Assembly: GCA_009786775.1 (NCBI GenBank)
Contig: WQRL01000001.1
Location: 1-20,271, forward strand
DNA length: 20,271 nucleotides
Origin: Oscillospiraceae bacterium
GTDB taxonomy: Bacteria; Bacillota; Clostridia; Oscillospirales; Oscillospiraceae
Direction: 5' to 3'
Position 1 is the first letter of the stretch, and each line of letters begins with the position of its first letter. The notes under the pieces were generated by a model that saw only the letters and a program-made list of their open reading frames with translations, made no database searches and was not told where the DNA came from. Position numbers and translations under genes: made by a program. Of the stretch, positions 3,418 to 6,572 are shown in pieces.

Positions 3418-3774
3418 ATGAGCAGATTCAATTGGAAAAAAATCATAAGAAGCCCAAAGCTGTGGATAAAGCTATGCAGCATTGCTGTAGCTTTATTTGC
3501 ATACTTTGGGCTAAGCGAAGTGGCCATAGAGGGGCTTAGAGAGCTTATAGCAATCATAGCTATACTCCTTGGGTACGCCTTTGCGGACGAGTGCAATGAT
3601 TCCCCTCAAAGCTCAGGTGCAGCCACTATAGTAATTGTATCAAATCTGGAAGAGGCATTGGACAAATATGCCGGGGAGAAAGCCCCACTAATCACCAATG
3701 CTGATGACATCGAATACAACAAAGACACCGCAGACGAGTTGCAGAACGGGGGTGTGGGCGATGGGATGGCTTGA
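3418..3774 (+). CDS. Phage holin, phiLC3-like
   Basis: This is a 118-aa protein with a strong ribosome binding site (AAGGAGG, 7 nt before ATG). The N-terminus FNWKKIIRSPKLWIK resembles the amphipathic start of phiLC3-family holins (NWK..., ...W...). Two hydrophobic segments follow at about residues 17-31 and 41-55, separated by a short turn. Holins oligomerise in the cytoplasmic membrane and release or activate the endolysin. Known family members are about 70-90 aa; here an extra acidic tail of about 55 residues follows the second TM segment. The stop overlaps the endolysin start by 14 nt, supporting a holin-endolysin pair with translational coupling. The fold assignment rests on the N-terminal pattern and context. 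Confidence 0.75.
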   Translation: MSRFNWKKIIRSPKLWIKLCSIAVALFAYFGLSEVAIEGLRELIAIIAILLGYAFADECNDSPQSSGAATIVIVSNLEEALDKYAGEKAPLITNADDIEYNKDTADELQNGGVGDGMA

Positions 3775-4525
3775 TAATATCACAAATTCCCTCCTAACGC
3801 TCTTTACGATGCTTTCCCCGCACCGAAGCAGCCCCCGAAACCGTCCAATCGCCAAGATAACAGTGCATCATAACGCAGGGAATATCCTGCTTCGGGCACT
3901 CGGCGAATGGCTGGCCAGGCTGACAACAAGGGCGTCCTACAACTACGGCATAAGCACCGCAGGGGAAAGTGCCCAATTTGTGGATGAGCGCGACCGCTCA
4001 TGGGCATCGTCCAGCCGGGAAAACGATAATGCTGCGGTAACTATCGGCGTGGCTAACAATCGGCTTGCACCGTACTGGACGGTAAGCGCAGCAGCATGGA
4101 ATAAGCTCATTGAGCTATGCGTAGATATCTGCTACCGCAACCCTGGTATTGTGCAGCAAGACGGCACAAGGGGGCTGTGGTATGACGGTACGCCGAGAGG
4201 CAGCCTGACCACGCATGATATGTTTGCCCGTACCGTATGCCCCGGTCCATACCTAAAGGCTCGGATGCCTGAGCTTTGCAGAGAGGTCAACCGCCGTTTG
4301 GCGGAGATTTTAGAGGAGGAAAATATGCCACGAATTAACAATATTAATGAAGTGCCGCCTGTGCACCAGCCAATGATAAGGCGCTTGATTGCGCAAGGTG
4401 TAATCAGAGGGAACGGCAATGTCGATGCTGAAGGGCTGCCGGCCGACATGGACTTGACCCTCGACATGATTAGACAGATGGCCTTTACTGAGAGGATGAT
4501 TAGCCGTAGTGAGATTGGCCAATGA
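3761..4525 (+). CDS. Phage endolysin: N-acetylmuramoyl-L-alanine amidase (Amidase_2) with C-terminal SLH-like domain
   Basis: I chose ATG 3761 (254 aa) rather than upstream ATG 3698, because the upstream 21 residues are only the holin tail read in another frame and because GGGGGTGTG lies just before 3761. The zinc ligands of the T7-lysozyme/PGRP family are visible: H36 in VHHNAG, H152 in TTHDMF and C160 in VCPGP, with the YNYGIS motif between them. The enzyme cuts the amide bond between MurNAc and L-alanine in peptidoglycan. Residues about 188-254 form a separate small helical domain (MPRINNINEVPP... to the end) of a kind often found at the C-terminus of clostridial lysins, presumably for wall binding. 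A strong internal ribosome binding site precedes this domain. There is no signal peptide, so release needs the holin. Confidence 0.9.
   Translation: MGWLDNITNSLLTLFTMLSPHRSSPRNRPIAKITVHHNAGNILLRALGEWLARLTTRASYNYGISTAGESAQFVDERDRSWASSSRENDNAAVTIGVANNRLAPYWTVSAAAWNKLIELCVDICYRNPGIVQQDGTRGLWYDGTPRGSLTTHDMFARTVCPGPYLKARMPELCREVNRRLAEILEEENMPRINNINEVPPVHQPMIRRLIAQGVIRGNGNVDAEGLPADMDLTLDMIRQMAFTERMISRSEIGQ
4313..4327 (+). promoter_or_regulatory. Internal ribosome binding site and in-frame ATG inside the endolysin gene
   Basis: GAGGAGG followed by AAAAT and an in-frame ATG at 4325 lies exactly at the junction between the amidase domain and the C-terminal domain. It is nearly identical to the ribosome binding site of the holin gene (AAGGAGGAAAATATG). 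Initiation here would give a 66-aa free C-terminal domain ending at the same stop (4525). Clostridial phage lysins CD27L and CTP1L are known to make such secondary products from internal starts. That it is used here is inference. Confidence 0.6.
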
Positions 4526-5655
4526 TGGAGAGGTTCGTTCATCCCTCTGGCGAGGACGAGAGGGACTACAGAATCCCGCAGTTTGTCCCAGGGCGGGACA
4601 TAATCCCAGATAAGGCTTTCTGCCTAGATTTGCCGCGGCTAAATGTGATTTTAGACCAGGGCAACATAGGTGCGTGTGTCGCCTACAGCGTAGGCACTTG
4701 TAAGTCCATCCTGGAGTACCAGGGCACTAACAAGTGGATAAAATTCTCGGCGATGATGCTCTACGGACACCGAAGACCAAACCACTGGCAAGGCCGTGGA
4801 ATGTGGCCCAGGGAAGCCCTGAGCAATCTGCGCCATGACGGCATGTGGCTAAAGCGGGATTTTAATACCCGGCGCGAGGTGCCCGAGTTATTTCCTTTCG
4901 TATCTCGTGCGAGGGCCGAGAATCCGAACTTAAACCGTGATGCCTTAAAGTTTCGAGTCTGCGGATATGCCCGACTCCGAAATGACAACGAAATCAAAAA
5001 AGCCCTGAGAAACGGGATGCCTGTAACCGCCAGCTGGGAGCTCTTTGAGAGTTTTAAGCAAACCGGCAGAAACGGGCGTGTGTCCGTACCCAGACCTGGC
5101 GAACGTCGAGTTGGTGCTCATCAAATGACCATAGTAGGCTGGACGGCAGATAACCACTGGATTGTCATCAACTCATGGGGTGTGCGGTTTGCTCATCAAG
5201 GCATGTACTACATACCCTTTGAATACGCACCTTATGAGATGTGGGGCGTGACAGATAAAATATTCCCTGCAAAGCTCAAGGCACGTGTCACGGAAATGAT
5301 TATCGGGTCACCGTGGCTCAATGTTGACGGCCAGATGCGTCCATTAGACGTGCCTGCTCAGATTATAGGCGGTAGGACATACTTGCCTGTGAGGGCGGTT
5401 ACTGAGGCACTGGGGGCCTCAGTAGAATGGAACCCGCACACAAGGGGAATCACCGTCCGTAGCGAAGAGCGGTTGATACGGTTGACTATCGACAGCACCA
5501 CCGTTGAGATTGACGGGCAGCGGCGCGCTATAGACGCTCCGCCAGTGCTTATAGACGGCAGGGCATTACTGCCAGTGCGATTTATCGCAGAACAGCTAAA
5601 TTCCGCCGTTGAGTGGAATCCAGTAGCCCAGCGGGTGACAATAAGAGCAAAATAG
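4522..5655 (+). CDS. Papain-like (C1A) cysteine protease with C-terminal copper-amine-oxidase-N-like repeats
   Basis: The 377-aa protein starts at ATG 4522 and overlaps the endolysin stop as ATGA. A second ATG follows directly. The papain catalytic set is complete: Q46 and C52 in DQGNIGACVAYS (Q-X5-C spacing as in papain), H200 in GAHQM, and N217 in INSWG. Residues about 263-375 are two tandem repeats ending in VEWNP..RGITV and VEWNP..QRVTI with LPVRAV/LPVRFI cores. This matches the copper amine oxidase N-terminal domain family (PF07833), common in extracellular proteins of Clostridia. There is no signal peptide, propeptide or TM segment. Position after holin and endolysin suggests export at lysis to cut a surface or S-layer protein. 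A role inside the cell, such as anti-host or structural-protein processing, is possible. Enzyme class is firm; target is unknown. Confidence 0.88.
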   Translation: MMERFVHPSGEDERDYRIPQFVPGRDIIPDKAFCLDLPRLNVILDQGNIGACVAYSVGTCKSILEYQGTNKWIKFSAMMLYGHRRPNHWQGRGMWPREALSNLRHDGMWLKRDFNTRREVPELFPFVSRARAENPNLNRDALKFRVCGYARLRNDNEIKKALRNGMPVTASWELFESFKQTGRNGRVSVPRPGERRVGAHQMTIVGWTADNHWIVINSWGVRFAHQGMYYIPFEYAPYEMWGVTDKIFPAKLKARVTEMIIGSPWLNVDGQMRPLDVPAQIIGGRTYLPVRAVTEALGASVEWNPHTRGITVRSEERLIRLTIDSTTVEIDGQRRAIDAPPVLIDGRALLPVRFIAEQLNSAVEWNPVAQRVTIRAK

Positions 5656-5659
5656 ATCT

Positions 5660-5702
5660 AAGCTGCTTTTGACCTAACCAGTCGAAAGCAGCTTATTTTT
5701 TT
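5660..5702 (+). terminator. Intrinsic terminator of the prophage late operon
   Basis: A 14-bp stem (5660-5673 with 5681-5694, one G-U pair, loop CTAACCA) is followed by seven T at 5696-5702. It begins 4 nt after the protease stop codon. Confidence 0.92.
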
Positions 5703-5757: not shown

Positions 5758-5794
5758 ATCCCGACAGGACTAATTCTTGTCGGGATTATTTTTT
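5758..5794 (+). terminator. Second intrinsic terminator
   Basis: A 12-bp stem (5758-5769 with 5775-5786, one G-U pair, loop CTAAT) is followed by TATTTTTT. No gene is visible between the first terminator and this one (5703-5757). It may be a safety terminator that insulates the promoter at 5805, or the end of an unrecognised short RNA. The minus-strand side has no T run, so it works only for plus-strand transcripts. Confidence 0.85.
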
Positions 5795-5804
5795 CAGAAA
5801 AGCC

Positions 5805-5833
5805 TTGACATACTGCTAGTAGTATGATATACT
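5805..5833 (+). promoter_or_regulatory. Strong sigma-A promoter with extended -10
   Basis: TTGACA at 5805-5810 (perfect -35), a 17-nt spacer, and TATACT at 5828-5833 (5 of 6) preceded by TGA, which gives an extended -10. The predicted start near 5840 lies just before the ribosome binding site at 5842, so the leader would be only about 17 nt. Confidence 0.85.
5809..5833. promoter_or_regulatory. Candidate operator: alternating ATACT/AGTAT half-sites over the promoter
   Basis: CATACTGCTAGTAGTATG (5809-5826) is an 18-bp inverted repeat with one imperfect pair, filling the -35/-10 spacer. A second, overlapping inverted repeat, AGTAT-GAT-ATACT (5821-5833), covers the -10. The half-site thus occurs three times in alternating orientation. 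The placement predicts repression by steric block. The RHH protein encoded at 6163 is the obvious candidate repressor; this is inferred from proximity. Confidence 0.55.
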
Positions 5834-5856
5834 AAAGTCAGAAAGGAGGTTAAGCG

Positions 5857-5991
5857 ATGGGCAAGAAACCCAAAAGGAAAGCAGCCGCAACGACCCTGGC
5901 AAAGGTAACGCTTGCAACTGCAATCCTGAGTCTGATAAACACAGTAATCGCACTAATTATCGTGATTATCGGACTGCTAAGAAGTAGCTAG
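5857..5991 (+). CDS. 44-aa basic-hydrophobic membrane peptide, candidate type I toxin
   Basis: ATG 5857 has a near-perfect ribosome binding site (AAAGGAGGT, 6-nt spacing) directly behind a strong promoter. The peptide begins MGKKPKRKAAATT and then has one hydrophobic segment from about residue 17 to 41 (LATAILSLINTVIALIIVII within it), ending LRSS. This is a single-span membrane peptide with a basic N-terminus. I cannot assign it to a named family. Its size and hydrophobicity, its isolated transcription unit, and a converging minus-strand promoter at its 3' end fit a type I toxin such as those of the TxpA or BsrG groups, though those usually carry the charged part at the C-terminus. A small phage-encoded membrane regulator is the alternative. 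That it is translated is likely; toxicity is inference. Confidence 0.7.
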   Translation: MGKKPKRKAAATTLAKVTLATAILSLINTVIALIIVIIGLLRSS

Positions 5992-5998
5992 TAGCTAC
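5984..5998. repeat. Short perfect inverted repeat over the stop codon of the 44-aa gene
   Basis: GTAGCTA-G-TAGCTAC, centred on the TAG stop codon. As RNA it can form a 6-bp stem with a 3-nt loop on either strand, directly before the larger hairpin at 6000-6025. Confidence 0.6.
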
Positions 5999-5999
5999 A

Positions 6000-6025
6000 G
6001 AGAGGGAGGTTAATCCCTCCCTCTC
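6000..6025 (+). terminator. GC-rich hairpin after the 44-aa gene, weak terminator or RNA stabiliser
   Basis: A perfect 10-bp stem, GAGAGGGAGG (6000-6009) with its complement at 6016-6025 and a 6-nt loop, starts 9 nt after the stop. Only ACTTT follows, so it is a poor intrinsic terminator. It may cause partial termination with read-through into the RHH gene, protect the mRNA 3' end, or form the 5' structure of the predicted antisense RNA. Confidence 0.55.
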
Positions 6026-6054
6026 ACTTTAGCACTTACAGAGCCTATCGTCAA
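6026..6054 (-). promoter_or_regulatory. Candidate antisense promoter facing the 44-aa membrane peptide gene
   Basis: Reading the minus strand, TTGACG (6054-6049, 5 of 6), a 17-nt spacer, and TAAAGT (6031-6026, 4 of 6) preceded by TGC, an extended -10. Transcription would start near 6019 and run leftward as an antisense RNA over the hairpin and the 44-aa gene. No clear minus-strand terminator is seen within the gene. The call rests on motif match only. Confidence 0.5.
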
Positions 6055-6059
6055 GCGAA

Positions 6060-6179
6060 ATGACAGTTTTGCACGTAATCTTGATTGCGCTAATAGCCAT
6101 AGCGATACCGTTGTCGATATATGTTATTGTCAAAAGTGTGAGAATTATCAAGAGGGAAAAATATGGAAAAGAAGATTAG
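6060..6179 (+). CDS. Possible 39-aa single-span membrane peptide
   Basis: ATG 6060 opens a 39-codon frame: MTVLHVILIALIAIAIPLS followed by a basic tail (VKSVRIIKREKYGKED). This has a clear TM segment and positive-inside topology, which is unusual for a chance frame. It overlaps the first 17 nt of the RHH gene, so the two could be coupled. Against it, there is no convincing ribosome binding site before the ATG. It is a second small membrane peptide in the same cassette if real. Confidence 0.4.
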   Translation: MTVLHVILIALIAIAIPLSIYVIVKSVRIIKREKYGKED

Positions 6180-6363
6180 CAAGACATCATCAAGAGTAAA
6201 ACAACGATACAACGACAAGGTTTATTCCCAAGTAAGTGTTAGGCTAAAAAAAGCGCTAGTTTCGGAATGGGAGCATAAGTTAGAAGCTGACGGCGTGACC
6301 AAAGCTGAATTTGTGCGTAATGCCATTACGGAATACCTTTCTGGAATAAATAAAAAAGCGTAA
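6163..6363 (+). CDS. Ribbon-helix-helix (Arc/CopG-like) DNA-binding protein
   Basis: The 66-aa protein has ribosome binding site AGAGGG 6 nt before ATG 6163. Residues about 21-29 (YSQVSVRLK) form the DNA-contacting beta strand, helix A follows (ALVSEWEHKLEADG), and helix B is TKAEFVRNAITEYL. The basic N-terminus MEKKISKTSSRVKQRYNDK is shared by small RHH proteins of Firmicutes mobile elements. Such proteins dimerise and bind inverted repeats, usually to repress their own promoter or as antitoxins. The likely target is the half-site array at 5809-5833; this is inferred from proximity. It ends 5 nt before a strong terminator, so it closes the cassette that begins at the 5805 promoter. Confidence 0.82.
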   Translation: MEKKISKTSSRVKQRYNDKVYSQVSVRLKKALVSEWEHKLEADGVTKAEFVRNAITEYLSGINKKA

Positions 6364-6368
6364 CGGAA

Positions 6369-6406
6369 AACAGCCTGGCAGAAACTAATCTGCCGGGCTG
6401 TTTTTT
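6369..6406 (+). terminator. Intrinsic terminator after the RHH gene
   Basis: A 14-bp stem (6369-6382 with 6389-6402, one G-U pair, loop AACTAA) runs into a T run at 6401-6406. It closes the moron-like cassette. Confidence 0.92.
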
Positions 6407-6483
6407 GTTGTTATCTCCTGATAACAACACCGAACCGACCTTGTACAAATATAAAATACGGCGCATTCGGATTTGAAATGTTC

Positions 6484-6520
6484 TGGCGGAAGAGGTGGGA
6501 TTCGAACCCACGGTAGGTTG
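6484..6520. other. Candidate prophage attachment site in the tRNA-Ser 3' end
   Basis: The 3' half of the tRNA gene (CCA end and T arm) abuts the prophage side, which is the usual arrangement when a phage integrates by recreating the tRNA 3' end. The second copy of the core would lie left of the window, so the core cannot be delimited here. The extent given is a placeholder for the CCA end, acceptor 3' strand and T arm. Confidence 0.4.
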
Positions 6521-6572
6521 CCCTACACCGCATTTCGAGTGCGGCTCGTTATGACCACTTCGATACTCTTCC
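6484..6572 (-). tRNA. tRNA-Ser (anticodon CGA)
   Basis: On the minus strand the acceptor arm GGAAGAG (6572-6566) pairs with CTCTTCC, followed by discriminator G (6487) and an encoded CCA (6486-6484). The anticodon stem CCGCA/TGCGG encloses the loop CTCGAAA, which gives anticodon CGA, reading UCG. The long variable arm (about GTAGGGCAACCTAC) is the class II hallmark of tRNA-Ser. The T arm GTGGG-TTCGAAT-CCCAC is canonical. It is transcribed away from the housekeeping genes, with its 3' end facing the prophage. Confidence 0.96.

Follow-up and report, generated by a model that had tools for sequence, protein, structure and literature searches.

The window opens a contig of 26,180 bases, of which it makes up the first 20,271, in a genome of 2.06 Mb (69% complete). 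Its left part is prophage-like by gene matches, and the phage-type genes neighbouring the operon studied here bear out the prophage setting claimed in a preliminary description of this DNA. Past two terminator-like hairpins the order is promoter, ORF1, ORF2, RHH gene, terminator-like hairpin and minus-strand tRNA-Ser; a DHFR gene (matched) and then a GroEL-type gene (assigned by eye) lie beyond the tRNA. The individual features are as follows.

3418-3774: weak holin match (E 0.036)
3698-4525: amidase endolysin (PHROG 7698, E 1.6e-38; Pfam Amidase_2)
4522-5655: papain-type peptidase with a copper amine oxidase N-domain
5659-5695: further terminator-like hairpin upstream of the operon
5758-5786, plus strand: terminator-like hairpin between the upstream lysis-type genes and the operon
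5805-5833, plus strand: sense promoter TTGACA-17-TATACT (11 of 12), its -10 box preceded by TG
5810-5825: palindrome ATACT-GCTAGT-AGTAT in the promoter spacer, putative RHH operator
5842-5849, plus strand: Shine-Dalgarno sequence of ORF1, AAAGGAGG, read directly
5857-5991, plus strand: ORF1, 44-aa peptide (best 17-residue hydropathy 2.94)
5984-5998: 6-bp hairpin spanning the ORF1 stop, which would be the second one in the predicted antisense RNA
6000-6025: 10-bp GC-rich hairpin behind ORF1
6026-6054, minus strand: convergent antisense promoter TTGACG-17-TAAAGT (9 of 12), again with its -10 box preceded by TG
6060-6179, plus strand: ORF2, 39-aa hydrophobic peptide with a charged C-terminus, overlapping the RHH gene
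6163-6363, plus strand: RHH gene, 66 aa, putative autorepressor (Pfam RHH_1, PHROG 876)
6363-6408, plus strand: terminator-like hairpin at the operon end
6484-6572, minus strand: tRNA-Ser(cga), possible prophage attachment site

The prophage likely ends at the tRNA-Ser, with its left end off the contig, and the operon lies near its right end. The 3′ end of the tRNA occurs once in its own genome (69% complete), and a second attachment site was not found there. The tRNA was also the sole Rfam match in the window, and 12 other loci gave none.

All the elements of the preliminary description were recovered at their positions, among them the near-consensus extended -10 promoter, the strong ribosome binding site, the 44-aa membrane-type ORF1, which is indeed present and hydrophobic, and the two hairpins at its 3′ end. 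The palindrome inside that promoter, ORF2 and the RHH gene had been missed and are read here. ORF1 carries a net charge of +6 N-terminal to its hydrophobic stretch and +1 after it. With 44 residues and a potential transmembrane stretch it falls within the size range of type I toxins (below about 60 aa); the charged C-terminus of such toxins is lacking in ORF1, while ORF2 has a charged C-terminal tail. ORF1 had no match in Pfam, NCBIfam or PADLOC, neither peptide fell into a toxin-like family, and at the Pfam cut-off the 44-aa peptide resembled none of the known families of type I toxins. Among 5.8 billion proteins ORF1 found only itself, and across 19 genomes of the genus its own match was the only credible one, two others having E values of 0.34 and 0.50. 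GenBank phages gave no match to ORF1 or ORF2 in a BLAST search whose low-complexity filter may hide such peptides. Since the 44-aa peptide has no sequence relative, any conservation described below is of the layout and not of this peptide.

An RHH gene and a palindromic operator

Against Pfam RHH_1 the RHH protein of the window scores 16.3 bits, below the 20.5 cut-off, and it matches PHROG 876, a transcriptional repressor, with E 3.4e-5. Its relatives in loci L106, L147 and L173 lie above the Pfam cut-off, and these matches through relatives place the window protein among the RHH proteins. The family is marked by the pattern T-S-x(2)-V-K-x(2)-Y-N-x-K-x-Y. An AlphaFold2 model built from 25 sequences (pLDDT 88, pTM 0.60) contains helices at residues 10-20, 30-43 and 47-65, and no strand was seen in this single-chain model. 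Foldseek returned six chains for the model at E ≤ 10 and none at E ≤ 0.001; five of the six (E 1.6 to 9.3) come from the toxin-antitoxin complexes RelBE, AtaTR, ParDE2, VapBC and ParDE1, which contain RHH antitoxin chains.

Searches for relatives of the window protein gave three besides itself in the protein database, two in genome contigs, and none in viral contigs (searched with peptide patterns) or GenBank phages. One relative lies on a Monoglobus plasmid with no operator nearby, and a second RHH query, from L173, found nothing in phages or plasmids. A relative in locus L022 led to a promoter of the same build as that of the window, in which the palindrome fills the spacer between the -35 and -10 boxes.

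The palindrome ATACT-N6-AGTAT has one site in the window and none in 100 shuffles with up to 3 mismatches. A pattern derived from the window and L022 sites retrieved 12 viral stretches, and the strict pattern TTGACATACT-N6-AGTATG-N-TATA, searched in DNA alone, retrieved 84 viral-contig stretches. Among the 58 non-identical sites in viral contigs obtained by the DNA pattern alone and with at least 900 bases available downstream, an RHH gene (own profile, E ≤ 1e-5) followed within 900 bases on the same strand in 26. On the opposite strand downstream the count was 0/58, upstream it was 3/61 and 2/61 for the two strands, and at random places in the same loci 12/9278. The 32 sites of the 58 with no recognised RHH gene downstream include RHH-like genes that the profile missed (L158 and L028, by eye), and at some of them the promoter drives an unrelated gene. 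One such group has cores ending in AATCT: here the palindromic promoter precedes unrelated genes in L094, L104, L109, L125, L132, L157 and L160, and no RHH gene of the window's family was found near these seven.

The association also holds in reverse. Of eighteen loci gathered by RHH protein similarity, and hence independently of the motif, 5 contain palindromes within 900 bases, 6 in all, compared with a mean of 0.03 and a largest value of 1 in 29 permuted-arm controls; in two of the loci with a palindrome the RHH gene lies on the side that the operator faces away from. These data argue that the RHH protein quite probably binds the palindrome, and the position of the palindrome in the promoter spacer suggests that the protein blocks its own promoter.

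Three large phage contigs (L028/L148, L030/L127 and L114/L135/L146; 83, 167 and 156 kb) carry 3 or 4 copies each of the operator-promoter, a regulon-like multiplicity.

Shared layout and convergent antisense promoter

The phage-like loci reached in this way have a common layout: the operator-promoter is followed by a short ORF1, a GC-rich hairpin and a convergent promoter on the minus strand, and then by ORF2 and the RHH gene. We read 43 distinct loci with an RHH gene downstream from the operator to the RHH gene and kept 39; those dropped were L115 and L165 (no ORF between promoter and RHH gene), L124 (22-aa ORF, weak RHH match) and L150 (two operator copies, 79-aa ORF). Two classes were defined after the loci had been read. 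Class A comprises 17 loci, including the window, with a hydrophobic ORF1 of 20-47 aa, and class B comprises 22 loci in which ORF1 and ORF2 are soluble.

Beyond the antisense promoter and ahead of the RHH gene, 15/17 class A loci have a second hydrophobic ORF (0.4 expected from shuffles), as do 0/22 of class B. ORF2 of the window has no clear Shine-Dalgarno sequence, as is true of many ORF2 genes in class A. The basic N-terminus of ORF1, which the preliminary description had taken to set it apart, is not unique, being shared by several class A peptides, while others have a basic C-terminus. In Pfam the 16 class A peptides searched gave nothing above the cut-off (best 0.022; TisB at 0.055 in one). 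Two ORF1 pairs had synonymous to non-synonymous counts of 4 to 11 and 9 to 27, with no sign of strong purifying selection; these pairs were drawn from the 35/39 loci that remain when L095, L103, L108 and L176, which lack an antisense promoter, are set aside.

Two side observations concern these peptides. The starts of class A ORF2 genes often lie at or adjoin the antisense -35 box, frequently with no ribosome binding site. L022 seems to hold two modules in tandem, since a second 29-aa peptide near-identical to ORF1 is encoded at L022:1958-2047, ahead of the first RHH gene.

In class B, an IS30-type transposase lies beyond the RHH gene on the same strand in 13 of the 22 loci, with at most 176 bases beyond the RHH start available in 4 of the other 9. 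It lies 218-254 bases past the RHH match in 12 of the 13, and two of the transposases match Pfam HTH_38 and rve. L128 is the only class A locus with such a transposase. The class B cassettes upstream of transposases are those of L100, L106, L118, L120, L134, L136, L162, L175, L177, L178, L033, L112 and L098. An XRE-like gene lies directly before the promoter in several class B loci (by eye; weak Pfam HTH_31 in L106).

The minus-strand promoter proposed in the preliminary description is present in the window, though by itself it does not rise above chance. Between 5000 and 7200, both strands together carry 11 promoter-like sites against 3.9 ± 2.0 in shuffles, and when the local 210 bases were shuffled, at least one such site arose on the minus strand in 21% of cases. 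At 9 of 12, the window's site is among the weaker ones, and it gains weight only because a promoter is conserved at the same place in other loci. Minus-strand promoters of at least 9/12 were found in 34/39 loci, of at least 10/12 in 28 and of at least 11/12 in 15. Once loci 80% alike had been thinned out, 23/28 still showed one of at least 9/12. The controls were low: 2/39 on the plus strand, 7% in shuffles and 5/39 in each of the neighbouring minus-strand stretches. Class A alone gave 15/17, or 16/17 in a wider stretch against 4.39 expected; the four loci lacking the promoter that are named above belong to class B. With the 44-aa peptide having no relatives, conservation of the 6026-6054 motif was assessed in architectural equivalents, where it is kept. 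RHH control alone, with the type I reading dropped, had been our first choice, which the antisense scan reversed.

For a hold-out, the prediction was fixed first and the strict pattern was then run against 398 genomes drawn by phylum and 391 drawn by class. The phylum draw returned the window's own genome only, and in the class draw 8/391 genomes matched, seven of them new. In these, an RHH gene lies 289-432 bases downstream on the same strand in 7/7, a hydrophobic ORF1 of 29-38 aa is present in 6/7, a minus-strand promoter of 10-12/12 lies 47-74 bases past the ORF1 stop in 6/6 testable loci, and ORF2 is hydrophobic in 6/6. L190 and L191 are near-identical, so the seven amount to about six independent cases. 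By eye, L187 has a hydrophobic ORF1 reading but ACG at the expected start codon, for which reason it stands outside the antisense test. Taken together, these comparisons of sequence leave little doubt that the shared architecture is real.

From promoter geometry the antisense RNA is predicted to start at about 6018-6019, some 27 nt past the ORF1 stop; in most loci the predicted start lies 26-49 nt past it. Behind ORF1, 31/39 loci have a stem that is 6 bp or longer and contains 4 or more G-C pairs (11% in shuffles), and the loop is GAAA in 19/39. Across the 35 loci with an antisense promoter, a terminator-like hairpin falls within the first 85 nt of the predicted RNA in 16 (3.7 expected) when 5 T in 8 are required and in 21 (9.1 expected) at 4 T in 8, the window passing only the latter. 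Such a hairpin makes a short antisense RNA possible, and the RNA may be short and RNAII-like as in pMV158; alternatively it may be long and extend across ORF1, as is described for modules of C. difficile (PMC6563280), and no clear terminator for a long RNA was seen. RNAalifold on the poorly aligning stretch between the ORFs gave three pairs only and hence no useful structure. In 16 class B antisense sequences, 80/80 and 79/80 stem cells were paired, against at most 73 and 67 with re-dealt arms, a count that is no evidence because the stems were chosen by best pairing. The conserved promoter points to an antisense RNA that is quite probably made.

Interpretation and relation to known systems

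The preliminary description had read the locus as a candidate type I toxin-antitoxin unit. Its short hydrophobic peptide and the convergent antisense promoter behind the stop stand, but the two-part unit of toxin and antisense RNA gives way to an operon, ORF1-ORF2-RHH, whose promoter palindrome is tied to RHH genes. Moreover, the antisense arrangement recurs in class B with a soluble ORF1, so that it is neither confined to membrane toxins nor a sign that a toxin is present. We propose, at about even confidence, that the operon combines a pair of small membrane peptides with an RHH repressor of its own and is under double control, resembling a type I toxin-antitoxin system with an added protein autorepressor. 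Self-repression of the operon would come about as RHH dimers occupy ATACT-N6-AGTAT, which lies between the -35 and -10 boxes, and thereby shut off the promoter. The convergent promoter behind ORF1, the conserved part of the second step, would give an antisense RNA that starts beside the GC-rich hairpin and pairs with the mRNA round the ORF1 stop and the stretch between the ORFs, and leaked mRNA would be removed or silenced; cleavage by RNase III is a guess by analogy with txpA/RatA. If repressor or antisense RNA dropped, for example when the element is lost or induced, ORF1 and ORF2 would enter the membrane and harm or arrest the cell. Comparative sequence analysis suggests the first two steps, and resemblance only the third. 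By analogy the two hydrophobic peptides are likely the effectors, and the chance that a peptide is toxic appears evenly balanced.

Because class B shares the cassette, a serious if rather unlikely alternative is level control of the pMV158 type with no toxin, in which the antisense RNA would act on ORF2 and the RHH gene, a feedback fixing how strongly the operon is expressed, and the peptides would be accessory phage membrane proteins, for instance for superinfection exclusion. Operator, hairpin, antisense promoter and RHH gene indeed recur in class B together with soluble ORFs and, in 13/22 loci, with the same-strand IS30-type transposase (12 of them at 218-254 bases past the RHH match), and the terminator-like hairpin in the first 85 nt of the antisense RNA (16/35 against 3.7) can be set beside pMV158 RNAII, which consists of one 8-bp hairpin and a 17-nt 5′ tail (PMC4485353, in excerpt). 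Yet the antisense target in pMV158 is repB translation (PMC4485353, in excerpt), whereas the window operon leads to a terminator and a tRNA, with no replication gene. The window's antisense RNA also follows the terminator rule only at 4 T in 8, and by eye a terminator seems to lie between the RHH gene and the transposase in several class B loci, so that the transposase may not be the antisense target.

That ORF1 and ORF2 form a holin/antiholin-like pair belonging to the neighbouring lysis genes would fit two adjoining small membrane peptides downstream of genes of which one matches an amidase endolysin (PHROG 7698, E 1.6e-38) and another, weakly at E 0.036, a holin. We consider it improbable, as the two terminator-like hairpins and the operon's own operator-bearing promoter separate it from the lysis genes and, by eye, the neighbours differ in other loci. 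Even less credible is that A+T-rich DNA at this place resembles an antisense promoter by chance: the window scan alone gives no significance, but 34/39 loci against 7% of shuffles and 2/39 on the plus strand, with 6/6 testable hold-out loci, argue strongly against it.

The operon of membrane peptides with an RHH repressor may be an undescribed kind of toxin-antitoxin-like module. The freely available published papers searched by title and full text described no RHH-autorepressed small-membrane-peptide operon with a convergent antisense RNA. More tentatively, and short of even confidence, we suggest that an undescribed, widespread cassette, an extended -10 promoter with the operator of an RHH repressor in its spacer together with a convergent antisense RNA that starts at a GNRA-type hairpin, is common to IS30-type elements and to phage two-peptide modules; the latter would form a toxin-antitoxin-like class of their own, neither type I nor type II, silenced by a protein at the DNA level and an antisense RNA at the RNA level as in plasmid copy-number control. 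If true, a protein autorepressor has been added to an otherwise type I-looking toxin-antitoxin control, and plasmid-style dual control is linked to prophage membrane peptides and transposases. The DNA signature, a spacer operator with a convergent promoter behind ORF1, would then find very short, unalignable phage peptide genes and make the toxicity of many tiny phage membrane peptides testable.

In Clostridia, type I toxins are described as small hydrophobic proteins with a convergent antisense RNA, carried on prophages (PMC6563280, in excerpt). The modules TxpA/RatA, BsrG/SR4 and C. difficile CD0977.1-RCd11 share with the window a short hydrophobic peptide, a strong ribosome binding site, a convergent antisense promoter close behind the gene and a prophage setting (excerpts of PMC6563280, PMC7699646 and PMC3531473). 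The window differs from them in its RHH gene and operator within the same operon, its second hydrophobic ORF, and the basic N-terminus of ORF1 in place of a charged C-terminus. Its predicted antisense RNA is possibly short and in that nearer to pMV158 RNAII than to RatA, whereas txpA and RatA overlap by about 120 nt (PMC3531473, in excerpt). The words 'CopG' and 'repressor' have 0 occurrences in the matching passages of PMC6563280 and PMC7699646.

Type II operons with RHH antitoxins (RelBE, ParDE, VapBC) resemble the window in that the RHH protein probably autorepresses its own operon. By contrast, no globular protein toxin stands beside the RHH gene of the window, where the other ORFs are short hydrophobic peptides, the next gene past the operon is a tRNA, and an antisense promoter is conserved. 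The class B IS30-type elements have the same operator-promoter, hairpin, antisense promoter and RHH gene as the window, but their ORF1 and ORF2 are soluble and a transposase (Pfam HTH_38, rve) follows, which the window lacks.

CopG of plasmid pMV158 is an RHH protein, and the repressor gene stands first in the pMV158 operon, whereas in the window it stands last. As far as the excerpt of PMC4485353 goes, this small repressor and a small antisense RNA jointly control one operon with repB, and thereby plasmid copy number, as the target. In the window the operon has no rep gene and ends at a terminator-like hairpin and tRNA-Ser; a putative RHH-type repressor, encoded in an operon with a palindrome in its promoter, and a predicted antisense RNA would nonetheless act on one operon there as well. 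By analogy, the control logic of this three-gene, RHH-linked operon appears closest to that of pMV158, with its CopG and RNAII.
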